DNA from: Bacteroidota bacterium
Lineage (GTDB): Bacteria > Bacteroidota > Rhodothermia > Rhodothermales > JABDKH01
Length of the DNA stretch: 37,579 bases
Direction of reading: 5' to 3'
Assembly (NCBI GenBank): GCA_020437385.1
Contig: JAGQWL010000015.1
Location: 1-37,579 of the forward strand
Shown: in pieces, positions 8,301-32,937 of the stretch
Position numbering within the stretch: position 1 is the first letter of the stretch
Layout of the letters: every line of letters starts with the position of its first letter
Translations under genes and position numbers: made by a program
Notes under the pieces: model-generated
Databases searched by the model: none
What the model saw: the letters and a program-made list of their open reading frames with translations, nothing else
What the model was told of the DNA's origin: nothing

Positions 8301-11300
8301 TACGTCGCGCCTTTTCGAAATGACGCCGTATCGTGCGCCAATGGTGTCGCACGCTTCTCCACATTCGCAGTCAGATACCTTCCCGAGCGAACGGCAACGG
8401 TCTGCGCGGCGGGACCCCGTTTCAGGAGCGTCACCAGGGCCGCGATTGATTCTTTGGAGCGGTCACCAACGTCCACGTGACTGAATTCCATCGCCGGGAC
8501 CTCCTTGCCAATAACGCCGCAAGGACCCGCCACGAGATTCCCAGCCGGGTTGGAGACGGGATCCTTCGCCGACGTCGATAGCGATGATTCGCTCAGCGCA
8601 TAGACGCGTATGCTCTCGAGGTCAACCTCGACGGCCGCCTGAGCGAGCCACAAAAGCGAAAAGAAGTTGCGATCGATCGCGGCGTCCAACGAGTGCGAAT
8701 CGTCGGTAGGCCAGAGATTCAGGATGTCGGTCGGCTGCTGCCCGATCGATACCAGATGACTGAGGAGCTTGAAGTAGTCCTCCTTTTCTCCCGGGCGAAT
8801 GCGAGATTCCATGTCACCGAATGCCGGTTCCTCAGCCTGCCGCACGACGTGGACCGATGTCCCAGCGCCGCTGAGCGGACTGTCAACCGGTTCCTGGAGT
8901 GACTCGAGCAGCCCATCGGGTGCGGCGTTCGCGAACACCAGCCAGCGCCGGGCGCCATAGACCCTTTCGACCGGGGGGGTCATCGGCCGCCATTGAATCT
9001 CGTGGATCCAGTCATCGACATTCGAACTCTTCACAGGTTCGTGAGGAGCTGCCGCATCGTTATCGTCCGGCGCGGGCGAAGACTGTCCCTTGCCGGGTTC
9101 GATCCAGTAGCGGCTTCTTTCGAAAGGGTACGTTGGCAGCGGAATTCTGCGAGAGTATTCGTCGTTAAGCAGGTTGCCCCATTCCGGTGTCGCGCCGGCT
9201 CCCCAGATTGCACCGACAGCCTCGAAGAAGACGGCGTCGTCATCGGCGACATCCTTGGGGTGTCGCATCGTTGTGACGGCCGCCGGCGAGTCCTGCGTGC
9301 GATGCATATCTGCAAGCGTAGCAAGTGTTCGGCCTGGACCGACTTCGATGAGGATCGGATTCGCTGATTCCAGCAACGTGGCAATGCCGTCGCTGAAGCG
9401 TACCGTTTCGCGGATGTGTCGCGTCCAGTATTCGGGTGACATCGCTTCATCCGCCGTGATCCACGTGCCGGTAACGTTCGAGATGAACGGAATACCCGGT
9501 TCCGAGAACTGGATGTTGGAAACAAACTCGTGAAAGGCGTCAAGGATCGACTCGACCATTGCCGAGTGGGCGGCAACATCAATTCGGACTCGCTGGAAGT
9601 CGATGTCTGCATCGGTCAACGATTGCTCGAGGCGCTCGATCGATGCAACCGGGCCTGCAACGACGTTCAGCGTCGGTGCATTCTGGGCAGCGATACTCAG
9701 TTCTTCTCCGGTGTATCGGAGCACGGTCTCGCGATCTGCAAATACGCTCAGCATCGCGCCCGCATCAAGCGTTTCGAACAGACGTCCACGGGTGTACACG
9801 AGGGAAAGGGCATCTTCCAGCGAGAAGACTCCTGAAAGACAGGCAGCGACATACTCGCCCATGCTGTGACCTGTCATTCCATCCGGACGGATTCCCAGGG
9901 ACATCAGGAGACGGGCCGCGGCGAATTCCACGGAAAAGAGGGCGGGCAGCGACAGGAGGGGTGCCTGAAGGGGCTCAGCCGAATCCGTGTTCGCGTCCGG
10001 AACCAGGATCGGTTTCAGGTCGACGCCGTGCGCCTGCTTCATGTGCGCAATGCAACGGTCAATCGTGTTGCGGTACACCTCGTGTGCGCGGTAGAGTCCG
10101 GCGCCCATCTGCCGATGCTGTGCACCGCCGCCGGCAAACATAAAGATGCGGGTCGGTGAGTCGCCGGCCTTGCGAATACGAGAGCGATCGATGGATGACA
10201 GAGCGTCGATCACCTCATCGATCGTCTTTCCGCTTACCGCAGTACGGAAGTCATACGCTCGCCGGCCACGAGCCATCGTGTAGGCGACGTCGTCAAGATC
10301 GGCTTCCGGATTGGCAACCAGGTGGTCGCGCAGTCTTGCAGCGGCCGCGAGGACAGCCGATTCACTTCGGGCGGACAGCGGCACGAGGACGCGCTTCTGC
10401 GTTTTCGGCTCACGCGTGACGGACGGTGCTTGTTCGAGGATGACGTGCGCGTTCGTGCCGCCGACACCGAGCGAACTGACTCCTGCCCGCCGGATGCCGC
10501 CGGGAGGTGTCCACTTGACCAGTCTGTTGTTGACAAAGAAGGGGGAGTTCTCGATTCCCAGCTTTGGGTTCGGCTCGTTGTAATGGAGCGTTGGGGGAAT
10601 CTCGGCGTGTGAGATGGCGAGAGACGCTTTGATCAAACTCGCGACGCCTGCAGCCGTGTCAAGGTGGCCGATATTGGTCTTGACTGAGCCGAGGGCGCAA
10701 TACCCACGCTTGTCGTTTGCGCTGCCGTATGCCTGGGTCAGCGCGGCCAGTTCGATCGGATCTCCAACGGGTGTTCCGGTTCCGTGCGCTTCGACGTATG
10801 TGACCGACGCCGGATCAACTTCCGCTATTTCAATTGCCTCGGCGATGGCTTGTGCCTGCCCGTCCACGCTGGGGGCGAGATAGCTCACCTTGACCGAGCC
10901 ATCGTTGTTCACAGCCGAGCCACGAACAATTGAATGGATCGTGTCACGGTCGCGAATGGCATCGTCAAGACGCTTCAGGACGACGAGGCCCACGCCGCTG
11001 CCGAAGACGGTACCCTCGGCATCGGCATCGAAGGCTCGACAGTGCCCATCCGGCGAAAGAATCTCGCCGTCCTGGTAGAGGTAGCCTTTCTGCTGATCGA
11101 TCTGGATCGTAACGCCGCCGGCCAACGCCATATCGCACTCTCCGCTGAGCAGGTGCTGAGACGCCAGGTGCACTGCAACGAGTGAGGTGGAGCACGCGGT
11201 CTGAACGTTGATGCTTGGACCCTTGAGGTTAAACAGGTAAGAAGCCCGCGTCGTCAGAAAGTCCTTGTCGTTCCCCGTGTGTCGAACGAGGAACTCGCCG

Positions 11301-11746
11301 ACCGAGTGCATCAGTTCCGGGTTCGTGACGAGATTGTACATCATGTACGCCGTCATCCCGGAGCCCGCGAAGACGCCGATCGAGCCGTCGAACTGGGCCG
11401 GATCGTATCCTGCGTGTTCGAGTGCTTCCCAGCAGCATTCAAGGAAGAAGCGATGCTGGGGGTCCATTATGGCCGCTTCGCGCGGAGAGAACCCGAAAAA
11501 GCCTGCATCGAAATACTCGATGTCGTCGAGTACACCGTTAGCCGGAACGTAATTCGGATCGCGAATCAGCTTCTCCGGGACTCCGTTGCCGCGAAGCTCC
11601 TGCTCCGAAAAGAACCGGATCGATTCGATTCCGTCACGAAGATTCGCCCAGTAATCGTCTACAGACGAGGCACCGGGAAAGCGGCACGCCATGCCAACGA
11701 TGGCGATCTCACTTCCGTTGTAGACGATATCCTTATCCATGTCCAA
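5345..11746 (-). CDS. Type I polyketide synthase module KS-AT-KR-DH-ACP-TE
   Basis: 2133 residues, 10 bp downstream of the NRPS gene. KS about 10-440 has a full triad (Cys185 in TACSTS, His321 in EAHGTGT, His361 in KTNIGH). AT about 535-830 has Ser628 in GHSMGE; its specificity motif reads VAAHS near 724-728, neither the malonyl HAFH nor the methylmalonyl YASH form. The post-AT linker PTYPFERSRYW ends near 881. KR about 1145-1345 has TGGAGGIS, an LDD motif (B-type), Lys1274, Ser1298/Ser1300, Tyr1311 and Asn1315. DH about 1375-1640 lies after the KR, with His1393 and Asp1555 in HPALLD. The carrier about 1722-1800 has Ser1758 in LGGHSL. TE about 1835-2095 has Ser1918 in GYSGGG, Asp1945 and His2074. 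The enzyme should add one malonyl-derived unit to the aminoacyl chain from the NRPS, reduce it, dehydrate it and release it as acid or lactam. Finished by its own TE, it is probably the last module. Confidence 0.93.
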   Translation of the reverse strand: MDMDKDIVYNGSEIAIVGMACRFPGASSVDDYWANLRDGIESIRFFSEQELRGNGVPEKLIRDPNYVPANGVLDDIEYFDAGFFGFSPREAAIMDPQHRFFLECCWEALEHAGYDPAQFDGSIGVFAGSGMTAYMMYNLVTNPELMHSVGEFLVRHTGNDKDFLTTRASYLFNLKGPSINVQTACSTSLVAVHLASQHLLSGECDMALAGGVTIQIDQQKGYLYQDGEILSPDGHCRAFDADAEGTVFGSGVGLVVLKRLDDAIRDRDTIHSIVRGSAVNNDGSVKVSYLAPSVDGQAQAIAEAIEIAEVDPASVTYVEAHGTGTPVGDPIELAALTQAYGSANDKRGYCALGSVKTNIGHLDTAAGVASLIKASLAISHAEIPPTLHYNEPNPKLGIENSPFFVNNRLVKWTPPGGIRRAGVSSLGVGGTNAHVILEQAPSVTREPKTQKRVLVPLSARSESAVLAAAARLRDHLVANPEADLDDVAYTMARGRRAYDFRTAVSGKTIDEVIDALSSIDRSRIRKAGDSPTRIFMFAGGGAQHRQMGAGLYRAHEVYRNTIDRCIAHMKQAHGVDLKPILVPDANTDSAEPLQAPLLSLPALFSVEFAAARLLMSLGIRPDGMTGHSMGEYVAACLSGVFSLEDALSLVYTRGRLFETLDAGAMLSVFADRETVLRYTGEELSIAAQNAPTLNVVAGPVASIERLEQSLTDADIDFQRVRIDVAAHSAMVESILDAFHEFVSNIQFSEPGIPFISNVTGTWITADEAMSPEYWTRHIRETVRFSDGIATLLESANPILIEVGPGRTLATLADMHRTQDSPAAVTTMRHPKDVADDDAVFFEAVGAIWGAGATPEWGNLLNDEYSRRIPLPTYPFERSRYWIEPGKGQSSPAPDDNDAAAPHEPVKSSNVDDWIHEIQWRPMTPPVERVYGARRWLVFANAAPDGLLESLQEPVDSPLSGAGTSVHVVRQAEEPAFGDMESRIRPGEKEDYFKLLSHLVSIGQQPTDILNLWPTDDSHSLDAAIDRNFFSLLWLAQAAVEVDLESIRVYALSESSLSTSAKDPVSNPAGNLVAGPCGVIGKEVPAMEFSHVDVGDRSKESIAALVTLLKRGPAAQTVAVRSGRYLTANVEKRATPLAHDTASFRKGATYVITGGAGGISTALADLIGQKYGARIVLVGRTPLPDKSVWAARRDKSDLGADVEQKVARMAALSRSIDVDYVAADVTDRDAIRRAFNGIVDTFGEIDGVLHAAGLLDDGPALAKTAGAARSVLAPKTAGALAVIDAAKSSGARFVELFSSTSAVIAAAGQVDYVSANSFMDSLAASVGDGVTAVRAIRWGMWRNLGMTSRPDADSTPDEAESLDSHVFSSVLRKGSGSIYQIRLSTADHWFVNEHRLWTGQALAPGTLIVELVRSAIQLETGRNNCRITDLVFAETLSVPDGVTVNVGVEVTGTRNGNYDVVVTSEQDGLRVDHAFASAGPLEGPPDEDFADRYEQDLRRPASDEKSKQERWLDFGPRWHCLESSRYGSGRAEAVVELPDSYRKETLEFGLHPALLDIATGFALPLDSGYESHEDLYVPITYREIRTFGTLPPRFLSHARLATEEHAHPDFVTIDYRLVSEDGTVVAAIDGFAMKRVDAAEVARALGDAEASLGQMSLLDLGARFGIEPEEGLIALERCLSLDTPAPIVSSIRWSDVQSAVERSTRNERPASESSPTVSAEKRIGPRDAIERSLVDLWASLLGVTEIGIKDDFFDLGGHSLIAVRLFTRIRRDHGVDLSLATLFQAPTIEKCAALIRSELGLPEPQQHSSEGPSEASNGSQSVEGNALAPRRSGWTPLVPIRESGTRMPFYCVHGAGGNVLNFTSLSRLLGPDQPFFGLQARGVDGIQEPAATIEEMAEDYVDAVVSHDPDGPYLIGGYSGGGVVAFEMAKRLRARNKQVRAVVMLDTFCPTLPKAPQRPGESKVSRHLSHFRQSPVRYLGRYALGRYRFERNRLRKTYANFLTKFGRPLPIELREFKMISAYHAAQDRYQPSQYDGKVILITAETREAEFSHVGPDMGWAQWIPHLEVITSPGDHDTLFREPHVIKLVEHFNEAVDRLTGMVGSTGDGAGRGAGLKSDRMASRAEEMSDDAGVR

Positions 11747-11756
11747 CGCTTCGTGC

Positions 11757-14700
11757 CTAACGTCCTCTCCGGTTCATGGCAGCCCGTCTTGCCTCTGCCC
11801 TGGATGATCCGCGGGCGACGGCTGAGTTCTCCTCGGATTCGCCGTTTCCGGCCAGATGTGCCGCGAAGGTACGGATCGTCGGATACCTGAAAAGATCGAT
11901 CAGCGAAAGCGTTTGACCAAGTACCTCGCTGAGCCTCGCGTTGACCTGCACAGCAAGGAGGGAGTGTCCACCGATGTCGAAGAAGTTGTCAGTGACTCCA
12001 ACCGAGTCTGCTTCGAGTACGTCCTTCCAAACGCCCGCAATCGTCGTCTCCAGGTCGCTCTCGGGGGCAACGGTCGCTGCCGGTTTCGCTTCCGTGGTTC
12101 TGCTCTTGGGCGTCTGTTTCGCCAACGCATTCCGGTCCAGTTTGCCATTCGGCGTACGGGGGAATGATGCGAGGACGACGAATTGAGACGGAACCATGTA
12201 TGGAGGGAGCTGTCGGTCCAGCCGCTGCCGTGCCGCACTCTGTTCGAACGAGCCGTCCGCCGTTTCGACCACGTACGCTACGATGACCGGGTCCGTAGTT
12301 CGTCGTTCGACGACCACTGCCGTCTCGGCAACGCTATCCAACTGTCGCAGCGCCTTTTCGATTTCGTCCAACTCGATTCTGTAGCCGCGCACTTTGACCT
12401 GATGGTCATTGCGGCCGAGGAACTGAAGCAGTCCGTCCTCGGTGAACCGGCAGAGGTCGCCGGTACGATACATTCTTCCACCACGCGGACTGAACGGATC
12501 TGGTACAAAGCGCTCGTCGGTCAAGTCCGACCGATTCAGGTAGCCGGCTGTAACGCCGTCGCCGCCGATGAAAAGTTCACCCGTGACGCCGGTCGGAACC
12601 GGCGATCCGTCGAGACCGAGGACATAGACGGTGTTATTGGCCAGTGGACGGCCGATGGGCATCGAGCGTTCCGAGCCGGTCACCTCATAGGATGTCGACC
12701 AGACCGTCGTTTCCGTCGGACCATACATGTTCGTAACGGTTCCGGGCGCGAGTTCCTTGATCTGCCGCGCGAGGTCGGTGTCGAGCGCCTCTCCGCCAAC
12801 AAGGAAGTGCTGCAGCCTGCCCAACACTTCGCGGCCTTCCGGATCTGCGACAAGCATTCGAGCCATGGAAGGTGTGCACTGAAGATGTGTAACGCCCTCC
12901 CGGATCGCCAGCTCATACATCGAGATGGCGGATTCGGCTTCCGCCGCCGTTCGACCCACGACAAACGGTGCGGATGAACCGCCGTAGCCGTCCCCGCCCG
13001 TCACTGGCGCCGTGACTGGAGCCGTAGTTACCGGATTGCTTTCCTTCAAGAGGCGCGCAAGTTCGGGAAGGCTGCTCAGTACGAGTTCCGTATCGACGCC
13101 GAAGTCGACAAGACACCCGATTTCATCAACGCCAATCTCTTTCAATCGATCAACGAACGGCGCACACGTTTCCACCGATCCAAACAGACCGCTGGACTCG
13201 AAGTATCGTTCAAACGCGTAGTCCAGAATCGCATCGCGATCACCGTCCGACAAGTGCTCCATCGAGAAGCGGCCTTCGTTCGTCATCGTCATTTCCTTGA
13301 ATGTCGGAAACGTCCATGCCGCCTCTTTGACGAGGTTCATTGCCGTACCCAGGTACGCCTTCATTGCGTCGCGCACAATCTCGCGAACCGAGTCCACCGA
13401 ATCGCCGATGAACGTGTGAAGCATGAGGGTGATCTTGCCGCCCGAAAGCCCCTTCGCCTTCTGCGTATCGCGGTAGAGCGCGATCTTCTCCGCAAGTTCC
13501 TCGACCGACTGCCCAAGCAAATGCGTGAGAACATTGTAGCCGTTCTCGGCACCAAGTCGGAATGTTTCAGGGTTGCCGGCTGCCGTTATCCATACCGGCA
13601 GTTCCTGCTGCACAGGTCGCGGCAGCGTGCGGACGGAGACGTTCTTACCGTCTGCCTTCGGAAACTCAACGGCCTCGCCCCTCCACAAGCGCTGAACGAC
13701 CTCGATCTGCTCGAACATGATCTCCTTGCGTCGCTCCCAGTTCGCCGGCTGCAGAAGGAAGTCGTTGGGCTGCCATCCGGCGGCGAACGAGATGTCCACC
13801 CGGCCCCCTGAAAGGTTGTCAACCATGGCCCATTCTTCGGCCATGCGCACTGGATGGTGCAGCGGCGAGACGAGGCTGCCCGCACGAAGTCTCACGTTAG
13901 ACGAAATCGTTGCGAGAGCGGCGTTTGTGACTGCTGAATTTGGATAGAGCCCTCCGAAAGAGTGGAAATGCCGTTCCGGTGACCAGATGGCCACGAACCC
14001 GTGCTCATCTGCAAAGCGGGTCGACTCAAGCAGCAGGCGATACTGATCTCGCTGTCCATGCAGCTCCGAACTGGAGGCGGCAAAGAAGAAGAGGCTGAAG
14101 TCGATCGGCTGCTCCCGATGCGGGAGCGACGAATCCTCTCGCGTTGGCTTGACCGGGGAACCGAGAACCACCTTGTACCCGCGTGTAAGCGTCCAGAGCA
14201 ACTCCAATACACTGATGTCGAACGACAGGCTGGTCACGGCGAGCCACGTCCCACCGTCAGGTCGAAGCACTTCGTCCATCGCCACAAAAAAGTTGGCGAC
14301 GTTTCGATGCCGAACCATCACGCCCTTCGGCGCGCCGGTCGATCCGGAGGTGTGAATGACATACGCGAGATCGTCTTTGTCGGTCGCCGGTTCTTCATAC
14401 GTGGCCGGCAGATTCCAGTCTACTTCATCGAGGACCAGCGGCTCCCGGCTCTGATCGCTGAAGAGACCCCGGTAGCGGCGCAGACACAGGAGATCGGCAA
14501 CCGCTGCATCCTCCGAAATAAAATGGAGGCGCTCACGCGGAAAATCCGGGTCCAGCGGCACGTAAGCGGCGCCCGTCTTCAGAATGCCCAGCACGCCGAC
14601 GATCAGATGCGACGACCGATCCGAGCAGATGCCGACTCTGTCACCACGCTTGACGCCGCGTTTTCGAAGCAGATGCGACAGCAGCGTGGATCGCCTGTCG

Positions 14701-16460
14701 AGCTCGGAATACGTGAGACGCTCACGTTGTGTGACGATCGCAAGTTCGTCTGGCGCGCGCTCAGCAGCCGTCCTGAACTGACGGTGGATGGATGCGGGTT
14801 CATAGGAAACAGAGGTCCTGTTCCATGTTTCCACGATCTGCTTGTAGGTGTCGCGATCAAGAAGCCCGATGCTGCCAAACTTCTGCTCCGGATTCCGCGC
14901 CGCATACGTGCTGAAGTGACGGAACTGGGACACGAGTCGTGCTCGCGCATCCGTATCCAGTAGATCAGCGCGCATGACAAACCAGATGCGCCCGTCTTTC
15001 GAGACTGTCACAGCGAGAACGGCTGAGCGCGATGGCTGAGCCGCGTCTTCGGCAAATGAAAGCTCTACCGTTTCGAAGGGCTCGGCCTCGCGGAGTCGCG
15101 GATACCGCAGAAGCAGATCGCCTGAATGGCCGGCAAACGTCTGGTAGTGCGAGAGACGCTTCGTGGCCCTGCCGATCAATTCTCCGACGCTCGTTTCAGC
15201 GCTCCCGAAATCAAAGCGTGCCAGCGACGATGCCCGGTATAAACCGGCCATTTCGTCCTCCGGTGGTGAAGCGGCGATCCGTAGGTCCACCCGAGCCTGA
15301 TTACACAGCTTTGCAAGAAAGGCGGCCACGACGGCCGCAGACGAAACGGCCGGCGATACTTTTCGACCAGTCGGTACGTCCGCAGGGAGGAGTTCAACCG
15401 TATCGACGGCAACCTGCCCGGCCGACACCCTGGCCTCTGCATAGGGAACGATTGCTGGTTGCGGGTCAAGTAAGGCACGAACCATCCCGTGGTCGTGACG
15501 AGCGGCAGTCGTATCAATTTGGGCGAGTCGCTCGACATCCGGCACTGCGAACGCTTTTAGCTGATCCCCTGGAAACAGGGCCATCGACAGATCGGCAGCC
15601 TGCGGAACGTCATCGCCAATGCTGTGCAAGCTGCTGAGTCGGACGTCGTTGGAGGACGTTCCGACGACGACTGAATTCTTGTCTACCGACACAACGTGAC
15701 CGGCCTTGCCGGCGGATCCCGCGAGGACCTCAGCCTTTCCAACTGAGACGAAGCCCCCCGGCACTTTCATCTTTGCCGTCGCGACAGGGTTGTCATATGT
15801 ACCAAAATCCAGGCTGCGAACCAGTCGCGCGATCGAATCCGCGTCCTGTTCAAAGTCTATCACGCCGCCATGAGGGGGCCGATGGTACCTGCCAAAATAC
15901 TGGCCTGGGCCTGTTTGTTCGCGCCCGGCAAGACGCCGTTCCTCCAGCATTTCCAACAGTCGGCCGAAAGACGAGATACCGGCTTCGTAGCACTTCGTGT
16001 TGAGCGAAAAGGCCGTCTCGCCATCCGCGACCGAGATTTCCTCTTCAACGAGTACATCCCCTTCGTCAACCGCCGCCTTCATGAGATGCCACGAAACCGC
16101 GTGTCGACTGACCCCGTCTGCAAGGGCCCAGGTCGTTACGTTGAGGCCGGCATAATCCGGCAGGGGGCCGTCGTGAAAATTGATGGCCGCCACCCGAGGA
16201 AGGGATAACGCCTCCTCGGCGATGATACTCAGATTGGTGATACTCAGAAGATAATCGAAAGGGGTTGCCGCCAGGACTAGCGCGTAAGGGACATCCGAGT
16301 CGATAACCTTGAGCGATTGAGACTCGGCCCAATCTCGAATTCGCGGGGCATTCGATACGACTCCCAGGATCTCATGTCCGGCAGACATGATCGATCCCGC
16401 ACACTGAATCAGCAGCGATTCACTGCCGATGAGGTAACAAGAAAATTTGCTGTTTTCCAT
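11757..16460 (-). CDS. NRPS loading module: formyltransferase - partial C - A(Gly, with embedded monooxygenase) - PCP
   Basis: 1567 residues from ATG 16460. Formyltransferase domain about 1-200 has the catalytic trio Asn94, His96 and Asp132 (NFHDGPLPDYAG, VDEGDVL), with its small C-terminal subdomain to about 300. Residues about 340-545 resemble only the C-terminal lobe of a condensation domain, ending in the usual C-A linker (IVETWNRTSVSYEP); no HHxxxDG motif is present. The adenylation domain starts near 555: A3 HTSGSTGAPKGV, A4 SFDIS at 746-750. A luciferase-like flavin monooxygenase (about 785-1140; WSPERHFHSFGG, SFAAGWQPNDF) is inserted, then A5 MYGPTETTVW at 1245, A7 YRTGDL, A8 and A10 Lys1440. 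The ten-residue pocket read by eye is D-I-L-Q-L-G-M-V-W-K, close to known glycine codes. The PCP Ser is 1500 (IGGHSL). It should load glycine, formylate it and possibly oxidise it before transfer to the PKS. Confidence 0.92.
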   Translation of the reverse strand: MENSKFSCYLIGSESLLIQCAGSIMSAGHEILGVVSNAPRIRDWAESQSLKVIDSDVPYALVLAATPFDYLLSITNLSIIAEEALSLPRVAAINFHDGPLPDYAGLNVTTWALADGVSRHAVSWHLMKAAVDEGDVLVEEEISVADGETAFSLNTKCYEAGISSFGRLLEMLEERRLAGREQTGPGQYFGRYHRPPHGGVIDFEQDADSIARLVRSLDFGTYDNPVATAKMKVPGGFVSVGKAEVLAGSAGKAGHVVSVDKNSVVVGTSSNDVRLSSLHSIGDDVPQAADLSMALFPGDQLKAFAVPDVERLAQIDTTAARHDHGMVRALLDPQPAIVPYAEARVSAGQVAVDTVELLPADVPTGRKVSPAVSSAAVVAAFLAKLCNQARVDLRIAASPPEDEMAGLYRASSLARFDFGSAETSVGELIGRATKRLSHYQTFAGHSGDLLLRYPRLREAEPFETVELSFAEDAAQPSRSAVLAVTVSKDGRIWFVMRADLLDTDARARLVSQFRHFSTYAARNPEQKFGSIGLLDRDTYKQIVETWNRTSVSYEPASIHRQFRTAAERAPDELAIVTQRERLTYSELDRRSTLLSHLLRKRGVKRGDRVGICSDRSSHLIVGVLGILKTGAAYVPLDPDFPRERLHFISEDAAVADLLCLRRYRGLFSDQSREPLVLDEVDWNLPATYEEPATDKDDLAYVIHTSGSTGAPKGVMVRHRNVANFFVAMDEVLRPDGGTWLAVTSLSFDISVLELLWTLTRGYKVVLGSPVKPTREDSSLPHREQPIDFSLFFFAASSSELHGQRDQYRLLLESTRFADEHGFVAIWSPERHFHSFGGLYPNSAVTNAALATISSNVRLRAGSLVSPLHHPVRMAEEWAMVDNLSGGRVDISFAAGWQPNDFLLQPANWERRKEIMFEQIEVVQRLWRGEAVEFPKADGKNVSVRTLPRPVQQELPVWITAAGNPETFRLGAENGYNVLTHLLGQSVEELAEKIALYRDTQKAKGLSGGKITLMLHTFIGDSVDSVREIVRDAMKAYLGTAMNLVKEAAWTFPTFKEMTMTNEGRFSMEHLSDGDRDAILDYAFERYFESSGLFGSVETCAPFVDRLKEIGVDEIGCLVDFGVDTELVLSSLPELARLLKESNPVTTAPVTAPVTGGDGYGGSSAPFVVGRTAAEAESAISMYELAIREGVTHLQCTPSMARMLVADPEGREVLGRLQHFLVGGEALDTDLARQIKELAPGTVTNMYGPTETTVWSTSYEVTGSERSMPIGRPLANNTVYVLGLDGSPVPTGVTGELFIGGDGVTAGYLNRSDLTDERFVPDPFSPRGGRMYRTGDLCRFTEDGLLQFLGRNDHQVKVRGYRIELDEIEKALRQLDSVAETAVVVERRTTDPVIVAYVVETADGSFEQSAARQRLDRQLPPYMVPSQFVVLASFPRTPNGKLDRNALAKQTPKSRTTEAKPAATVAPESDLETTIAGVWKDVLEADSVGVTDNFFDIGGHSLLAVQVNARLSEVLGQTLSLIDLFRYPTIRTFAAHLAGNGESEENSAVARGSSRAEARRAAMNRRGR

Positions 16461-26569: not shown

Positions 26570-26697
26570 GGCCGCGCAGGGACCCGATTCGCAATCATAC
26601 TGTCAAATTCGTTAAGCGCGGAAGTTTCCCATGCCGCGTTGTAAACGAAAACCATCCTTTCGCTGTCCATCATATCAGAACGCGAAACTGACAGTTG

Positions 26698-27261
26698 ATG
26701 ACTGACGACACGGCCGGCGGTGAAGGAGCCGGTGGGCAGTCCTTTCGGGAGTTTGTCGAAGCAAACCAACGATGGGTCTACTACCTCGCACTCGACCTGC
26801 ACGGAAATCATCATGATGCGGAGGACCTCTCGCAAGAAGTCTTCATCCGGGCGCATACCGGTCTGGAATCATTCCGGGGCGATGCGTCCGTGCGAACGTG
26901 GCTGCGTCGAATTGCTATCAACCTCTTTCTGAATTCGCGTCGGAAGAAGGCGGTTCGCTTCATGAGCTTCTTCGAGAACGACGAGGATCAGGATGTCGCT
27001 TCAGTTGCTCACCTACCGGATTCGAGTGCTGAGGCCGCTGAAATTCGTCGCAACGTCGACGAAGCCCTGAAGCGCCTGTCACCTGCTGAAAGGAGCGCAT
27101 TCGTGCTGCGACATCTGCAGGACTTGACTGTGAGTGAAGTCGCTGTCACAATGGAAGTAGCAGACGGGACCGTCAAGAGCCTCTTACATCGGGCGACCCG
27201 GAAGATGCAGAAAGCACTTGCTGTGTATTCGACAACTGCGAGCCGAACAACGGTGAACTGA
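26698..27261 (+). CDS. ECF-type RNA polymerase sigma factor
   Basis: 187 residues from the ATG at 26698 (an in-frame TTG lies one codon upstream). Region 2 is visible at about 15-90 (FVEANQRWVYYLALDLHGN, DAEDLSQEVFIRAH, RTWLRRIAINLFLN), including the core-binding DAEDLSQEVF motif. Region 4 is at about 120-175 (LKRLSPAERSAFVLRHLQD, LTVSEVAVTMEVADGTVKS, LLHRATRKMQ), the helix-turn-helix for the -35 element. The short linker between them confirms group 4 (ECF). The stop abuts the start of the anti-sigma gene, so the pair is co-translated. It is first in an operon with four exported HEAT-repeat genes and probably controls them and itself. Confidence 0.95.
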   Translation: MTDDTAGGEGAGGQSFREFVEANQRWVYYLALDLHGNHHDAEDLSQEVFIRAHTGLESFRGDASVRTWLRRIAINLFLNSRRKKAVRFMSFFENDEDQDVASVAHLPDSSAEAAEIRRNVDEALKRLSPAERSAFVLRHLQDLTVSEVAVTMEVADGTVKSLLHRATRKMQKALAVYSTTASRTTVN

Positions 27262-28110
27262 ATGAAGGACCCAACTTGCCACCGGATCGAAGAACTGATC
27301 GTAGAGTCCGCCTCGGCGGAGCTTAGCGCCGCAGATCGCGAGCTCGTCACGACGCACCTTGCATCCTGCGAGTCGTGCGCCGCATTTGCGGCGTCGGTCC
27401 GAAACGTCATCTCTGGAGTTCGGGAGTCACCACACGTCGACCCCGGCGAAGTGTACTGGGACCGCTACTACGGTCGGCTCCTGGATCGCATGGAGCAGCG
27501 AGGCAACGCCGTTGCGCCGACCGGCGCATCACTGTTGGAGCGATTACGTGCGGCCTTTACTCCCCGCTACACGATCCCAGCGGCCGTTCGGCAGGCGTTC
27601 GTTGCGGTAATCCTTGTGGGAATAGGCGTTGTGATTGGGCGATTGGCGCTCACCGAGCCGACCGAAGCGCCGATCGAGCCGATGGCCCAGGTCGACCTCT
27701 CCGCAGCGGCGACCCGCGCACAGGCATACGACTACATCGCCCGTTCCAAGACGCTCCTGATCGGGTTGGCAAATTTTGATCCCGGAGACGAGGATCCGGC
27801 CCTGCTCAACCTGCCGCGTCGGCAGGAAATCGCAGCACGACTGGTGTCGGAGGCAGGCACGCTGAAGAGCGACCTCGGGGCCGCAGATCAACATCGGCTG
27901 GAAGAACTCATCAGAGATCTCGAGCTGATTCTCATGCAGATCGCCAATATCGAAGAGAACCACGACATCCCGGAAATCGAAATACTTCAAAGTGGTCTCG
28001 ACCGATCCGGCGTGCTGTTCCGCATCAACGTCGAGGAGATGCGCCGCGACGAGCCGGAGCGCGAATCGGCAAGTGCCGAATCCGCAAACAGGAATTCACT
28101 TTCACTCTGA
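27262..28110 (+). CDS. Zinc-finger transmembrane anti-sigma factor
   Basis: 282 residues starting directly after the sigma-factor stop. The N-terminal ~45 residues carry the ZAS/zf-HC2 pattern: an early Cys-His (DPTCHRIEEL) and HLASCESC (H-x3-C-x2-C) near residue 32. By family knowledge this binds zinc and holds the sigma factor in the cytoplasm. One transmembrane helix lies at about 112-132 (FVAVILVGIGVVIGRLAL). The C-terminal ~150 residues are predicted periplasmic and helical (RSKTLLIGLANF, RRQEIAARLVSEAG, LIRDLELILMQIANIEE) and end in an acidic/Ser-rich tail. This periplasmic part is the likely signal receiver and could contact the HEAT proteins encoded next. An AAGGA ribosome-binding site for the next gene lies in the 12 bp gap. 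Confidence 0.9.
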   Translation: MKDPTCHRIEELIVESASAELSAADRELVTTHLASCESCAAFAASVRNVISGVRESPHVDPGEVYWDRYYGRLLDRMEQRGNAVAPTGASLLERLRAAFTPRYTIPAAVRQAFVAVILVGIGVVIGRLALTEPTEAPIEPMAQVDLSAAATRAQAYDYIARSKTLLIGLANFDPGDEDPALLNLPRRQEIAARLVSEAGTLKSDLGAADQHRLEELIRDLELILMQIANIEENHDIPEIEILQSGLDRSGVLFRINVEEMRRDEPERESASAESANRNSLSL

Positions 28111-28122
28111 ACGAAGGAAAAA

Positions 28123-29880
28123 ATGCAGACGACTGGACGAATTTTAACTGCGGCAATCATCGTTGTGATTGCATCCGCCGCGACGACGCCAATCGCGACG
28201 GCGCAAACGGCCGAGAAGGACTATATCGCCGCTAACAACCTCGTTCTTGACGGTAAATGGAGTGAGGCCGAGGGCGCGATGCAGGCGTTTGCCAAGAAGT
28301 ATCCACGACACGACCGTGCAGACGATGCGTCATTCTACGCGTGCTACGCCGGCGAAAGGCTTCGTCCCGACTCTGAAGGAGCCTTCCGATGTTACGAGTC
28401 GTTCGTCAAGGACTATTCGCGAAGCAACTACGTCGATGAGGCCCAGGCAAACATGGTGAAGATCGGTCGCGAACTGGCCTCTAGAGGGCTTCCGGAGTAC
28501 GGCCAGAAAATCAAGGCATTGAAGAGCAGCAACGATGAGGAAGTCGCGTTAGCGGCACTTTATGCCCTTCAGAACATCGGCGACGACGACGCGCTTTCGA
28601 CGGTGATGACGCTCTATGACCGGACCAGCGACGAGAAGATCCGTGGGAAGATCGTCTACGTTCTTGCTGATTTCGAGTCCGCTGACGTATCCGCAAAACT
28701 CGCGGAAATCGTCGCCTCGGATCCGTCGACAGACGTTCGGAAGAAAGCGGTCTACGCCCTCGGCAACGTTGAGACGGCTGCTTCGTCGAAATTGCTTGTC
28801 GACATTCTGAAGTCGGATGCACCGACCGAAGTCAGGAAGGCGGCGATGCACGCCATCGCCAACCAGGAGAACGAAGGTTCTGTAGACGTGTTGTCATCCG
28901 TCGCGATGACGGAGACCGACCCTGACCTGGCCAAGGGCGCCGCTTATGCACTTGGCAATGTCGACACGCGTGCCGCGTCGGACGCCCTGCAGAAGATCGC
29001 CGCTGAGGCTCGCGAAAGAGAGGCACGAAAGGCCGCGGTGTATGCCCTTGGAAATCGAGACGACGTCAACGTCGTGCCGGTGCTCGTCAAGATCGCCAGC
29101 GAGTCAACGGATTCTGAACTGGGTAAGGCTGCCGCCTATGCCCTCGGAAACGTCGAAACCGAATCTGCCGCAAAGGGTCTGGAGACCATTCTTTCGAGCG
29201 CCCGGTCAAGCGAGGTGAAAAAAGCGGCACTCTACTCAATTGGAAACCGTGAAGACGCCGCGTCACTCGCGGCCCTGAGAGCCACCGCCGAAGCTTCGAC
29301 CGATCCTGAACTGCAAAAGGCAGCCGTGTACGCGATCGCGAACAACGACGGGCGCGATGCCTACTCTGCCCTTGTTTCCATCTACGGAAAAACGACTCGG
29401 AATGAAGTCCGCCGTGCCGTCTTGTATGCAATCGGTAACGGCGAATATCCGCAGGCACGCGAGTTCCTGCTGAAGCAGGCCAACGCCTCCGGGCAGTCGG
29501 ATCTCTCAAAGACTGCCGTGTATGCGCTCTCGAACATTCTGTCTGACTCCGATCGAGGCGTGTTCATGGAGATCTTTAAGTCCGCCAAAGACGGCGACGT
29601 GAGACGCGCGGCGCTCTACCAGATCGCAGACGCAGGAGCGGACACGGTGCCGCTCCTCTCGGAGATGTTGGAATCAGAAGCAGATGACGACATTCGACGC
29701 GATATCATCCACGCACTCGGAAGCTCGGAAAGCGATTCGGCTGTTCCCGTTCTCGCTCGAGTAGCACGAACCGATCGCAATACCCGAAACCGCACCGCCG
29801 CGGTGCAGGCCCTGGGGAATATCGGAACACGAAGCGCAAAGGATGCGCTGCTGAGCATCTTGCAGAACGACGAAAACTAG
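28123..29880 (+). CDS. Exported protein with TPR-like N-terminus and about 14 HEAT repeats
   Basis: 585 residues; Shine-Dalgarno AAGGA at 28114-28118. Signal peptide MQTTGRILTAAIIVVIASAA is followed by cleavage near ATAQ. Residues about 30-125 look like two tetratricopeptide-like units (LVLDGKWSEAEGAMQAF, GAFRCYESFVKDYSRSNY), as in BamD/YbgF-type proteins. From about 135 to the end I count 14 repeats of 31-32 residues with the core 'x-E-V-R-K-A-A-V-Y-A-L-G-N-x5-A-x3-L-x2-I-x3'. They fit the PBS-lyase HEAT-like family and form an alpha-solenoid used for protein-protein contact. No catalytic motif is seen. It is probably a periplasmic scaffold. It is the first and longest of four such genes, 12 bp after the anti-sigma gene. 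Confidence 0.9.
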   Translation: MQTTGRILTAAIIVVIASAATTPIATAQTAEKDYIAANNLVLDGKWSEAEGAMQAFAKKYPRHDRADDASFYACYAGERLRPDSEGAFRCYESFVKDYSRSNYVDEAQANMVKIGRELASRGLPEYGQKIKALKSSNDEEVALAALYALQNIGDDDALSTVMTLYDRTSDEKIRGKIVYVLADFESADVSAKLAEIVASDPSTDVRKKAVYALGNVETAASSKLLVDILKSDAPTEVRKAAMHAIANQENEGSVDVLSSVAMTETDPDLAKGAAYALGNVDTRAASDALQKIAAEAREREARKAAVYALGNRDDVNVVPVLVKIASESTDSELGKAAAYALGNVETESAAKGLETILSSARSSEVKKAALYSIGNREDAASLAALRATAEASTDPELQKAAVYAIANNDGRDAYSALVSIYGKTTRNEVRRAVLYAIGNGEYPQAREFLLKQANASGQSDLSKTAVYALSNILSDSDRGVFMEIFKSAKDGDVRRAALYQIADAGADTVPLLSEMLESEADDDIRRDIIHALGSSESDSAVPVLARVARTDRNTRNRTAAVQALGNIGTRSAKDALLSILQNDEN

Positions 29881-29909
29881 TACCATCATCACCCTTTTCG
29901 AGGCGAATC

Positions 29910-30572
29910 ATGAAACACCCAAAGGCGCTGACCGGTGCGATCATCATCGTTGCCTTCCTGACGATCGCCGCGAGTCCCATCGCTTCCTTCACCTTCTGGA
30001 ACGGACTGTACGTCAGAGTAGCGGGCTTCTTCGCGGATGGCAATCCGGTGGCCGCGTTCTCGGATGTTCAGTCACTTCCGAACGAGACAGATTCCGATGT
30101 TGCCAAGGCCGCCCTCTATGCATTGGCTAACTCGACGGATGCGGAGTCCGTGGGGGATCTTGCTACGTTCGCCGGGAATCGGTATCCGCTTGAGGTCCGC
30201 AAAGCGGCAGTGTACGCCATCGGAGATGTTGGTGGAGACGAAGCGCAGCGAATCCTCGTCGGCGTCGTCCAGAATGCAGACGAGGTTGAATTGGCGAAAG
30301 CCGCAGTCTACGCACTTGCGAACACCCTCCACACCGGCCAGTCCGGCTTGCTGGCCGAAATTGTGGATTCGCCAGTGCGGACTGAGATCCGGAAGGCGGC
30401 CGTGTATCAGATAGCGAACGTGGGCGGAGACGACGCGGTTGATGCACTGGGTAGAATCATCCAATCGGATTCACCGACGGAATTGCGGAAGGCCGCTGTC
30501 TACGCTCTCGGCAACATCGGAAGTCCGAGGGCCCGGTCCGTGCTTTCCCGATTGGTCGGTAGTGAAGGGTGA
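29910..30572 (+). CDS. Small exported or membrane-anchored HEAT-repeat protein
   Basis: 220 residues, 29 bp after the previous gene, with a GAGG ribosome-binding site at 29900-29903. The N-terminus MKHPKALTGAIIIVAFLTIA is a signal peptide or a single membrane anchor; a second moderately hydrophobic part follows (FTFWNGLYVRVAGFF). From about residue 57 there are five repeats of 31-32 residues with the KAAVYALGN core (KAALYALANS, KAAVYAIGDV, KAAVYALANT, KAAVYQIANV, KAAVYALGNI). These repeat cores are nearly identical to those of the neighbouring proteins, so it probably arose by duplication of part of one of them. No enzymatic motif is visible. It is likely part of the same envelope assembly. 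Confidence 0.85.
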   Translation: MKHPKALTGAIIIVAFLTIAASPIASFTFWNGLYVRVAGFFADGNPVAAFSDVQSLPNETDSDVAKAALYALANSTDAESVGDLATFAGNRYPLEVRKAAVYAIGDVGGDEAQRILVGVVQNADEVELAKAAVYALANTLHTGQSGLLAEIVDSPVRTEIRKAAVYQIANVGGDDAVDALGRIIQSDSPTELRKAAVYALGNIGSPRARSVLSRLVGSEG

Positions 30573-30626
30573 TAATCGGCGTCGCTCCACGTCTGAAACG
30601 ATCTACTCCATCTAACCAACAGTAGA

Positions 30627-31826
30627 ATGGGAACGAGTGAGAACATCCGTCGATCACTGGGGGCAGTCGTGATAGTCGCGTCGATCTGCATTGCCGATCA
30701 CGCGGCCGCCCAGACTGTCGTCAGAGAGCAAGTGTCGAATTCGCTGGGGGCGGATTTCGCCGCCGTCAGGAAAGAGTCCGGTCGGTCCGATCGCTGGATT
30801 GGCTATTCGTTTGTAAGGCGGATGGAGCGCGGTAGTATGGTGGGGACCTTCGCGATCGGCGGTAGCGACCATCACGTTGAACTCGGCGACTGGATCGCCG
30901 GACGTGTGGGGCCGTCGTCGCCGAAAGAGGCCGCAAAGCGTGAACTGGACAATCTGCGCGACGAGGACGAAATCGTCGAGAAGCCCGTGGCCGTCCTGGT
31001 GCGTGTGTCCGGAAGCGATAACCAGATCAGCCGCGTCCGCTACATGACGATGTCGAGCCTGTTCGACCCGGACGGTCTCGACCTTCACTGGCTGGGTGAG
31101 CGAGAAGACGCGCAGAGCTACGATCTGTTGTTGGCCATCTACAAGGAAGCGTCGAGTCCGAAGCTGCGCAAGTCCGTCACCTATGCCATCGGATTTCACG
31201 ACGATGACGATCGTGTTGTACCCTTTCTTAAAAATCTCGCCTCGTCTTCAGACGAGGAGGATGTTGCAAAGGCTGCCGTCTATTCGCTGGGAAATCAATC
31301 CGGTACGTCTGTCACGACTTTTCTGGCAGACATCGCGCGAAGTTCACGGCCAACCGCTATTCGCAAGAGTGCGGTCTATTCCCTCGGCAACAGAGAAGAC
31401 GAAACCTCGATTGACGCGTTGACCGAGATCGTGTCGGATGCAGCTGTCGGGATCCCGATACGGAAAGCATCGCTCTATGCGCTCGCGAACTGCGCTGCGC
31501 CCGAGGCACTCGCGACGGTACGTGCCGTCGCCACGCGTGATACAGAGGTAGAACTTGCCAAAGCCGCTACCTACTCACTGAGTCAAGTGGAAGAATCAAG
31601 CGTTCCGATGCTCCTGGAGGTGCTTCGGGAAACACAGCACGCGGCTGTCCGCAAGGCAGCCGTGTATGCGATCGGGAATGTGGAATCGCATGACGCTGTC
31701 GAGGCGCTTAAGTGGGCTGTTGGGTCTGACTATGACTCAGAGGTCCGCAAGGCGGCCGTGTATGCTCTTGGCAACATTGGAACAGATGAGGCGCGCGATG
31801 CCCTCAAAGCAATTCTTTCAAACTAG
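30627..31826 (+). CDS. Exported HEAT-repeat protein with a conserved unnamed N-terminal domain (paralogue A)
   Basis: 399 residues. Signal sequence about 1-29 (MGTSENIRRSLGAVVIVASI, cleavage after AAAQ). Residues about 30-174 form a domain I do not recognise. Its landmarks are RWIGYSFVRRM near 56, VELGDWIAGRV near 84, KPVAVLVRVSG near 119, ISRVRYMTMSS near 134 and LDLHWLGERED near 151. The same landmarks in the same order occur in the next protein. From about 175 there are seven HEAT repeats (KSVTYAIGF, KAAVYSLGN, KSAVYSLGN, KASLYALAN, KAATYSLSQ, KAAVYAIGN, KAAVYALGN). The gap to the previous gene is 54 bp without an obvious terminator, so it probably belongs to the same operon. It is likely periplasmic; its function is unknown. 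Confidence 0.85.
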   Translation: MGTSENIRRSLGAVVIVASICIADHAAAQTVVREQVSNSLGADFAAVRKESGRSDRWIGYSFVRRMERGSMVGTFAIGGSDHHVELGDWIAGRVGPSSPKEAAKRELDNLRDEDEIVEKPVAVLVRVSGSDNQISRVRYMTMSSLFDPDGLDLHWLGEREDAQSYDLLLAIYKEASSPKLRKSVTYAIGFHDDDDRVVPFLKNLASSSDEEDVAKAAVYSLGNQSGTSVTTFLADIARSSRPTAIRKSAVYSLGNREDETSIDALTEIVSDAAVGIPIRKASLYALANCAAPEALATVRAVATRDTEVELAKAATYSLSQVEESSVPMLLEVLRETQHAAVRKAAVYAIGNVESHDAVEALKWAVGSDYDSEVRKAAVYALGNIGTDEARDALKAILSN

Positions 31827-31845
31827 GCCGACTACGACAGACTAG

Positions 31846-32937
31846 ATGACATCGTCCCTTTTTCGCCCCTTCGGTTTCGTCCTGTTCCTCCTTTGTGTGG
31901 CGGAGCCGACCGCTTCCGGCCAGACCGTTGCGCACTACTCCGGCAACGGCGGACTGCAGGGCGGGTTCACCGAGGCGCGCGAATCTGCTCTCCAGAGTCG
32001 CAGATCGGTATGGTTCGGCTTCTCCGTCGATCGAATGAGTTGGGACAATTCCTATTTCGGCCGTGAGGATGACGAGCCGTCTCTTTCGGATGTTGTATTC
32101 GGACGGACTGCGGTGCCAGTCGAGGAGGACGTGCGTACGGCAGCTCGCAACGAGATTGATCGCCTGGAAGGGAATCGGTCCCAGCAGAAAGTCCATCGCC
32201 CTGTCGCCTTGTTGCTTTCGGTCGGCTCGCACGGGGATTTGCAGAAGGTCAAGATTTCTGACATGGATCGACCGGTTGAGTTGGACGGTGATCCGCTGTT
32301 CTGGGGTGGCACCACGTCGCAGGACGAGGCAGCCGAGTTCGCCGGTCGGATCCGACAATCGTCCGAAGTCGCAGCCGTGCGAGAAGACGCAGTTACGTTC
32401 GTCGGCCTTCTGGATGAGTCGGAGCGGGCGAAGGCCGTGCTTGCCGACGCGCTTTCCGAAGACCGATCCGACGACGTGCGCAAGCAGGCCGTGTTCTGGA
32501 TCGGCAAGCGGGGAACAGCAGACGCGCTCTCAGTCGTGCTGAAGACCGTCCGCTCAGACCAATCCGAGGACGTGCGAGCGCATGCAGTGTTTGTGCTGAG
32601 CCGGTTTGATCGGGACGACACGATCGACCTTCTGCTGGATGTCGCTCGTTCGGCCAAGTCCGATCAAGTCGCCGGCGCGGCGAGTTTCTGGGCCGGTCGA
32701 CTCCTCTCGAAAAAACTGTTCGGCGACGAAGGAAGCGACGACGAGATGGACCGCGTGCGCAAGCAAGCCCTGTATGCCCTGGTCGGAGATCCGGACGAGA
32801 GCGTCGGCGTGCTTGTTGATCTGGCGCGTAACGGATCGAGTAGCGGCGTTCGTCGGCAGGCTGTCTTCATGCTCGGCCAGTCACACTCGGCAGAGGCGCT
32901 TGATGCCCTGAAATCACTTGCTGCGCGCGGCCGATGA
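31846..32937 (+). CDS. Exported HEAT-repeat protein with the same N-terminal domain (paralogue B)
   Basis: 363 residues, 19 bp after paralogue A. Signal peptide MTSSLFRPFGFVLFLLCVAE, cleavage near ASGQ. The N-terminal domain at about 25-165 matches paralogue A in order: SVWFGFSVDRM, LSDVVFGRTAVP, RPVALLLSVGSHG, LQKVKISDM and LDGDPLFWGG. The HEAT part is more diverged than in the three upstream proteins: KQAVFWIGK, AHAVFVLSR, KQALYALVG and RQAVFMLGQ replace the usual KAAVYALGN, and one repeat is interrupted by an acidic insert (FGDEGSDDEMDRV). The last 24 bp overlap the end of the convergent sulfatase gene. It is the last gene of the sigma-factor operon. Confidence 0.85.
   Translation: MTSSLFRPFGFVLFLLCVAEPTASGQTVAHYSGNGGLQGGFTEARESALQSRRSVWFGFSVDRMSWDNSYFGREDDEPSLSDVVFGRTAVPVEEDVRTAARNEIDRLEGNRSQQKVHRPVALLLSVGSHGDLQKVKISDMDRPVELDGDPLFWGGTTSQDEAAEFAGRIRQSSEVAAVREDAVTFVGLLDESERAKAVLADALSEDRSDDVRKQAVFWIGKRGTADALSVVLKTVRSDQSEDVRAHAVFVLSRFDRDDTIDLLLDVARSAKSDQVAGAASFWAGRLLSKKLFGDEGSDDEMDRVRKQALYALVGDPDESVGVLVDLARNGSSSGVRRQAVFMLGQSHSAEALDALKSLAARGR

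Follow-up and report, generated by a model that had tools for sequence, protein, structure and literature searches.

The window, by which we mean the whole stretch of 37,579 nucleotides analysed here, holds six open reading frames, all on the + strand and spanning positions 26698 to 32937, that encode an ECF sigma factor (SIG), an anti-sigma factor (ASIG) and four HEAT-repeat proteins (H1 to H4) in that order (Table 1). The intergenic gaps from SIG to H4 are 0, 12, 29, 54 and 19 bp, the same five values on which the initial annotation had based its description of tightly spaced genes read in one direction, and the gene content it proposed is borne out by Pfam, which finds an ECF sigma factor, a zf-HC2 anti-sigma factor and four HEAT_2 proteins (196, 74, 126 and 68 bits for H1, H2, H3 and H4, respectively). 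The 5' neighbour of the operon is a family 3 glycoside hydrolase gene ending at 26569, and the 3' neighbour is a converging sulfatase gene. No such flanking pair was seen next to the operon when the ORF lists of the fetched relatives were read, and for this reason the unit is taken as the six genes and their promoter.

Table 1. Genes, domains and predicted promoter of the operon (positions in the window).
Feature	Positions	Strand	Description	Basis or remark
Predicted autoregulatory ECF promoter	26640..26669	+	TGTAAACG - 16 nt - TGTCCA	28 bp before sigma start codon
SIG	26698..27261	+	ECF sigma factor, 187 aa from ATG	Pfam, TIGR02937, tree
ASIG	27262..28110	+	Anti-sigma factor, 282 aa	zf-HC2 residues 6-40, one membrane helix 107-130, periplasmic helical domain 143-280
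ASIGC	27688..28107	+	Periplasmic four-helix domain of ASIG	AlphaFold model, mean pLDDT 75.7
H1	28123..29880	+	585 aa; signal peptide, TPR-type N-domain, ~14 HEAT repeats	Pfam, export scan
H1 N-domain	28207..28518	+	TPR-type	Cysteine pair C74, C90
H2	29910..30572	+	220 aa; N-terminal membrane anchor, 5 HEAT repeats	Pfam, export scan
H3	30627..31826	+	399 aa; signal peptide, alpha/beta N-domain (30714-31112), 8 HEAT repeats	
H4	31846..32937	+	363 aa; signal peptide, alpha/beta N-domain (31924-32325), FWLGQ/FALSQ-type HEAT repeats	

The sigma factor pair and the exported HEAT proteins

The possession of sigma-70 regions 2 and 4 only, together with a length in the size class of ~180-200 aa, places SIG among the ECF sigma factors (sigma-70 group 4). 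Pfam gives 66.5 bits for Sigma70_r2 and 53.9 bits for Sigma70_r4_2, and the match to TIGR02937 reaches 115 bits (cut-off 42.9). We take the ATG at 26698 as its start codon; the mechanical ORF list has an in-frame TTG one codon upstream. The N-terminal HxxxCxxC domain of ASIG is that of a zinc-finger class I anti-sigma factor, with a zf-HC2 score of 22.9 bits (Pfam cut-off 22.2) and with H32, C36 and C39 invariant across 19 aligned relatives. As expected of this class, the ASIG gene adjoins its ECF sigma gene in 27/27 systems. According to one survey, class I anti-sigma factors are found near only 6% of the ECF sigma factors of Bacteroidota (PMC7406223). The genome of the window is taken to belong to this phylum as GTDB defines it, and to its order Rhodothermales, since G017, a member of the same order, has four rhodopsin genes, one of them halorhodopsin-like, a hallmark of Salinibacter ruber. 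The periplasmic domain ASIGC has no convincing Pfam match, and a fold search of the PDB, using an AlphaFold model of ASIG built from 10 sequences, returned generic helical bundles only, none of them under an E value of 0.001.

HEAT solenoids have been studied mostly inside the cell. Here, hydrophobic N-terminal segments are predicted in H1 (20/20 family members), H2 (8/8) and H3/H4 (15/16) and in none of 19 control sigma factors (0/19), which agrees with the export initially proposed. H2 seems to be anchored rather than cleaved, as an AXA-Q-type site occurs in 1/8 of its family members. Membership of the four proteins in the HEAT-repeat class follows from Pfam and from the AlphaFold model of H4 (mean pLDDT 78.9), whose solenoid matches alphaRep/HEAT structures in Foldseek with an E value of 2.1e-5. 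Repeats counted with a home-made repeat profile number 14 in H1, 5 in H2, 8 in H3 and 4 in H4; the range of 5 to 14 initially proposed is therefore right for the first three and slightly too high for H4.

Judged from their sequences, the four HEAT proteins are not of one kind, with H1 set apart by its TPR domain, H3 and H4 by an alpha/beta N-domain and H2 by its membrane anchor. The cysteines C74 and C90 of H1 are invariant in 11/11 aligned sequences, and the H1 N-domain scanned alone scores 25.4 bits against YfiO, with weak matches to YbgF and BamD that are below cut-off. The domain common to H3 and H4 (H34N) has no Pfam match and varies much, with a mean column identity of 31%. Concerted evolution of the repeats inside the operon was considered as well and set aside: the within-operon repeat similarity expected if the solenoids co-evolve is weak, with permutation p values of 0.019 for H1-H2 and 0.23 for H1-H4.

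The predicted promoter and its targets

An autoregulatory promoter upstream of the sigma gene is common among ECF sigma factors, though not universal. In this group the consensus TGTAAACC-N16-TGTCTA is found upstream of 24 sigma genes, with the spacer of 16 nt kept in 22/24, which amounts to a conserved two-block motif of fixed spacing and thus to an autoregulatory promoter as predicted from sequence. Within two mismatches of the consensus lie 17/24 upstream regions as opposed to 4/1200 shuffles, a comparison in which the consensus was derived from the same 24 regions that it scores; an unbiased word-pair count gives 13/24 regions versus at most 5 across 20 shuffle sets. The weakest candidates may be false sites (G116 with 5 mismatches, two others with 4, and G220 with a spacer of 14 at a position far from the start codon). 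The sigma factor had initially been described as a dedicated one, which agrees with the presence of its own conserved promoter before the sigma gene.

A search of the operon's own genome for exact sites gives 4, versus 0 in a reversed control, and only the operon's is in a clear promoter position. With up to two mismatches allowed there are 106 sites (59 in the control). Thirty of these were examined, among them every one of the 8 sites with no more than one mismatch, and the operon site is the only one of the thirty in promoter position; in this set L274, L290 and L292 (near contig ends) were read at the wrong offset, and for L272 the strand read was the wrong one. The other 76 sites lie outside the examined set, so weak extra targets may exist. 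Since only the operon's site among the eight own-genome sites with at most one mismatch stands just before a gene, SIG is predicted to activate most likely its own operon and little else. A wider regulon was considered and rejected, as none of the examined own-genome sites besides the operon's is in promoter position. Ten relatives together contain 15 exact matches; the operon promoter accounts for 7 of them, and another 3, in G010 and G012, are located 46-175 bp ahead of an ORF.

Genomic linkage of the HEAT genes and HEAT repeats in related systems

The order SIG-ASIG-H1 is kept in 27/27 tabulated systems from 25 genomes, with frequent overlaps of -4 or -1, so that the layout is one shared by relatives. 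The table comprises 29 loci for the 27 systems, two of which are each split across two contigs. Nineteen systems were selected by ASIG alone and two (L116 and L117) by the sigma factor alone, five (L102, L103, L104, L110 and L111) were first fetched through a HEAT match, and the remaining one is that of the window; in the systems picked by ASIG or sigma factor alone, the HEAT neighbours were unselected. Excluded before counting were L220 (G367, without H1), L334 (G014), L338 (Acidobacteria) and the loci with fused HEAT repeats, and weaker anti-sigma matches reaching into the C-terminal part (G267, G360, G407 and G266) also stand outside the table. Searching with the ASIG alignment finds full-length or contig-split members in 16/114 genomes of the order, and members of at least 140 bits that cover the C-terminal domain in 15/395 genomes of the phylum.

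Beyond H1 the operons are more variable. H2, H3 and H4 differ in number among genomes, and a protein with H34N follows in 12/27 systems, several of the other 15 ending at contig ends. A shorter H1 marks a subtype found in G162, G339 and G124 and, as second copies, in G342 and G271; H1 is followed by a double-PDZ protein in G162 and G339. G367, a weaker relative (78 bits), has a sigma and anti-sigma pair without an adjoining H1.

The domains of the HEAT proteins give a second view of this linkage. Run on 395 genomes of the phylum, the H1 N-domain profile gives 18 matches of at least 47 bits, and 18/18 are beside a sigma gene; those below 47 bits look like generic TPR proteins. The H34N profile gives 13 matches in 10 genomes, of which 12 are inside these operons and the remaining one is weak (21.8 bits, within a 1294-aa frame). 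Operon members served to build both profiles and are bound to match them, so what is informative is the lack of strong matches elsewhere, and these HEAT proteins are therefore linked to the sigma pair. Neither synteny nor the domain searches turned up HEAT genes dispersed away from the pair, the outcome that would have spoken against the initial annotation. One candidate for such a scattered H1, G014:C105, was rejected; the genes before it encode a sigma factor and a 301-aa membrane protein that lacks a zinc finger, which makes it a divergent case. The arrangement is also present in an Acidobacteria genome (G472, isolate RYN_26; locus L136), where the genes after a divergent sigma gene encode, in turn, an anti-sigma factor that matches ASIGC at ~30 bits, an H1 that combines a TPR domain (~43 bits) with HEAT repeats, and an exported HEAT protein that matches H34N in part. 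The promoter region of the G472 sigma gene is without the conserved motif, as expected since its sigma factor differs.

In other relatives it is the anti-sigma factor itself that carries the HEAT repeats. The sigma factors of G048 and G075 fall inside the 17-row clade that holds the SIG of the window (support 100/100), and their genes carry the same promoter as the window group. Their anti-sigma factors are without ASIGC and have HEAT repeats in the periplasmic part, with HEAT_2 scores of 32.1 bits in G075 (above the cut-off of 27.7) and 22.7 bits in G048 (below it); the downstream protein is of the Toastrack type in G075 (DUF4097, 57.5 bits), G048 giving a sub-threshold LiaG match only. With the sigma clade and promoter the same and HEAT repeats within the anti-sigma factor, separate and built-in HEAT repeats thus stand in for one another among related sigma factors. 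This lends indirect support to the initial proposal that the HEAT proteins may regulate the anti-sigma factor in the periplasm. Further anti-sigma factors from other families of the phylum have HEAT_2 above cut-off in 7/7 scanned, and DUF4097 occurs in 2/3 of the downstream proteins scanned. Outside the order such systems show a poor promoter motif, the scanned regions having 3-6 mismatches, and their link to the operon is therefore by domain architecture only.

A second HEAT-bearing locus is present in the genome of the window. Contig C211 encodes a BlaI-type repressor, an M56 (BlaR1-type) protease with C-terminal HEAT repeats and an exported HEAT protein. In G003 a similar BlaI/M56/HEAT set, its protease and repressor assigned by reading of similarity, ends 488 bp before the operon's sigma gene.

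Possible roles of the periplasmic HEAT proteins

We consider it about an even chance (a probability near 0.5) that the operon is a self-contained, autoregulated ECF envelope-signalling module in which periplasmic HEAT solenoids regulate the anti-sigma factor in the fashion of RseB; at a broader level, these little-known proteins probably sense or buffer cell-envelope stress. The cytoplasmic zinc-finger domain of ASIG would hold SIG at the membrane, while the exported HEAT proteins, above all H1, would read the periplasmic four-helix domain. A disturbance of the envelope would alter the binding between HEAT proteins and anti-sigma factor, ASIG would then release or lose SIG, and the freed sigma factor would transcribe its own operon from TGTAAACC-N16-TGTCTA to yield more anti-sigma factor and HEAT proteins. 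In such a feedback loop the HEAT proteins would be the main product and at the same time act in the periplasm as sensor or brake, the part that RseB plays towards RseA. We infer the HEAT-anti-sigma contact, the direction of its effect, the signal and any proteolysis step. The operon and its order, the export signals, the promoter conservation, the exclusive genomic linkage and the HEAT-anti-sigma fusions of relatives are read in the sequences.

In favour of this regulator model we count the synteny in 27/27 systems, the domain linkage, the conserved promoter with its single own-genome site in promoter position among those examined, the exchange of HEAT repeats in cis and in trans seen with G048 and G075, the M56-HEAT system and the double-PDZ gene in G162 and G339. 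Against it stand the G367 pair without H1 and the weak repeat similarity within operons, and co-expression alone gives equal synteny if the HEAT proteins are mere effectors. HEAT solenoids bind very diverse partners, and so the fold does not reveal the partner.

The chief rival of the regulator model takes up the point on co-expression. The HEAT proteins would be output only, periplasmic or outer-membrane-associated effectors (scaffolds or chaperone-like helpers) made under envelope stress, with ASIG sensing alone through its four-helix domain. The narrow predicted regulon, of which the HEAT genes are the main product, is consistent with this, as are the weak resemblance of the H1 N-domain to the TPR domains of BamD/YfiO and YbgF and the shape of the ASIG four-helix bundle, which is also known in periplasmic sensor domains, an unspecific match. 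However, HEAT repeats inside the anti-sigma factors of relatives from the same sigma clade, and HEAT repeats fused to an M56 protease in the second system, point to a role in signalling, and we regard the effector-only account as rather unlikely. A structural envelope scaffold, which the initial annotation had offered as one option, finds no evidence in its support in this analysis.

A nutrient or surface-signalling switch rather than a stress response seems improbable to us. Here the H3/H4 N-domains would bind an extracellular or periplasmic polymer, peptide or metal and the HEAT repeats would relay this to the anti-sigma factor, which would suit an N-domain that is variable (the 31% given above) and essentially confined to these operons, and also the glycoside hydrolase and sulfatase genes that flank the operon in the window. 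But such a flanking pair was not noticed in the ORF lists of the relatives fetched, an H3/H4 gene is missing from 15/27 systems (several of them cut by contig ends), and Pfam finds no TonB-dependent receptor among the window operon's six genes. Lastly, that the HEAT set is an accessory cassette, functionally unconnected to the sigma pair and kept in synteny by vertical inheritance of one old operon, would fit the varying numbers of H2, H3 and H4 between genomes and is already largely refuted by the linkage data, since H1 accompanies the pair in genomes of different families and classes, an Acidobacteria genome whose sigma factor is divergent among them, and since some relatives have anti-sigma factors with HEAT repeats built in; we give it very little credence.

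Returning to the regulator model, we can extend it to a more tentative proposal, which we would sooner doubt than accept as it stands: periplasmic HEAT solenoids may be a general, unrecognised sensory module for inner-membrane signalling in this phylum and in at least one Acidobacteria genome, used in three forms: as exported proteins of their own that accompany a four-helix anti-sigma factor, as part of the anti-sigma factor, or as part of a BlaR1-type protease. A conserved autoregulatory promoter would complete the feedback. What the solenoids would sense is the condition of the envelope, possibly by redox changes at the two invariant cysteines of H1 or by being stretched mechanically.

ECF sigma factors, zinc-binding anti-sigma factors and HEAT repeats are each known, and it is their combination, the H3/H4 N-domain, ASIGC and the promoter that appear to be undescribed in the searchable literature. 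No description of operons joining an ECF sigma factor with exported HEAT proteins was found in the literature searched, which lay mostly outside subscription papers and supplements. A conserved operon that exports several HEAT solenoids, has a predictable promoter and has narrow targets makes a compact, testable envelope-signalling system, and it draws attention to two domains, ASIGC and the H3/H4 N-domain, that are without a convincing Pfam match.

Three known systems invite comparison. The second HEAT-bearing locus of this genome, with its BlaI-type repressor, M56-HEAT protease and exported HEAT protein, resembles the BlaI/BlaR1 (M56) systems; the transducer is a different one, and Pfam reports no penicillin-binding sensor domain for the M56-HEAT protein. 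The neighbourhoods of the same phylum that encode a sigma factor, a zf-HC2-HEAT anti-sigma factor and a Toastrack (DUF4097) protein share with the operon related sigma factors (two of them in the same clade), the zf-HC2 domain and periplasmic HEAT repeats. In those neighbourhoods the HEAT repeats are within the anti-sigma factor and a Toastrack-type gene often follows, whereas here they are in separate exported proteins, and the lack of a DUF4097 match among the window operon's proteins (Pfam) keeps the operon apart from the PSP/Toastrack group. The parts of PMC11237479 that were consulted present Toastrack as partnering PSP-like envelope stress systems, predict it to be intracellular and do not describe the arrangement of sigma factor, HEAT-bearing anti-sigma factor and Toastrack.

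The third comparison is with rpoE-rseA-rseB of E. coli (sigma-E, RseA and RseB), where likewise a sigma factor, a membrane anti-sigma factor and a periplasmic protein are encoded in one operon that is autoregulated, and the PDZ protein after H1 in two relatives recalls DegS/RseP. RseB is the periplasmic regulator of the sigma-E system (PMC8103513) and the source of our analogy. The HEAT proteins are, by their predicted export, periplasmic proteins encoded within the sigma operon as RseB is, and a MucB/RseB domain was not found in those of the window, for which Pfam gives HEAT and TPR instead, so they may act like RseB yet without belonging to its family. The operon differs from rpoE-rseA-rseB in that its anti-sigma factor is of the zinc-finger type with a four-helix periplasmic domain, up to four HEAT solenoids serve as the periplasmic proteins, no protease gene is part of the window operon and the predicted regulon is nearly the operon alone.

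Cysteine pair and reading frame of H1

The cysteines C74 and C90, both held by the TPR-type N-domain of the exported HEAT-repeat protein H1, are invariant in the main subtype (11 of 11 H1 proteins), and the pair is missing from the H1 sequence of G162, a genome of the short-H1 subtype. It is possible that these residues form a disulfide or act as a redox sensor.

The H1 gene of another relative, G112, is apparently split into frames of 119 and 381 aa, perhaps as a result of a frameshift or an assembly error. Two very long open frames, of 2133 and 1567 aa, were also seen in the window.

Coordinates of the features discussed
Feature	Locus	Position
H1 C74 and C90	window	28342-28392
Split H1, G112	L106	1351-2921
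Two very long open frames	window, - strand	5345-16460
Double-PDZ exported protein, directly 3' of short H1	L111	5334-6314
Double-PDZ exported protein, directly 3' of short H1	L219	3805-4800
TPR + thioredoxin/AhpC-TSA protein, short-H1 neighbour	L218	8204-10129
PsbP-like protein, short-H1 neighbour	L217	8413-9423
BlaI-type repressor, M56-HEAT fusion protease, exported HEAT protein	L024, C211	547-3876
M56-HEAT plus exported HEAT set, directly 5' of the sigma-HEAT operon, G003	L039	4008-11111

Other HEAT-bearing signalling loci

The window's own genome carries, on a separate contig, a second signalling locus bearing HEAT (L024), and in G003 the sigma-HEAT operon is immediately preceded by a similar set, comprising an M56-HEAT fusion and an exported HEAT protein. 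Anti-sigma factors of the zf-HC2 type with fused HEAT repeats (L221-L234) are also encoded in several further families of the phylum; some of these factors have Toastrack (DUF4097) genes beside them.
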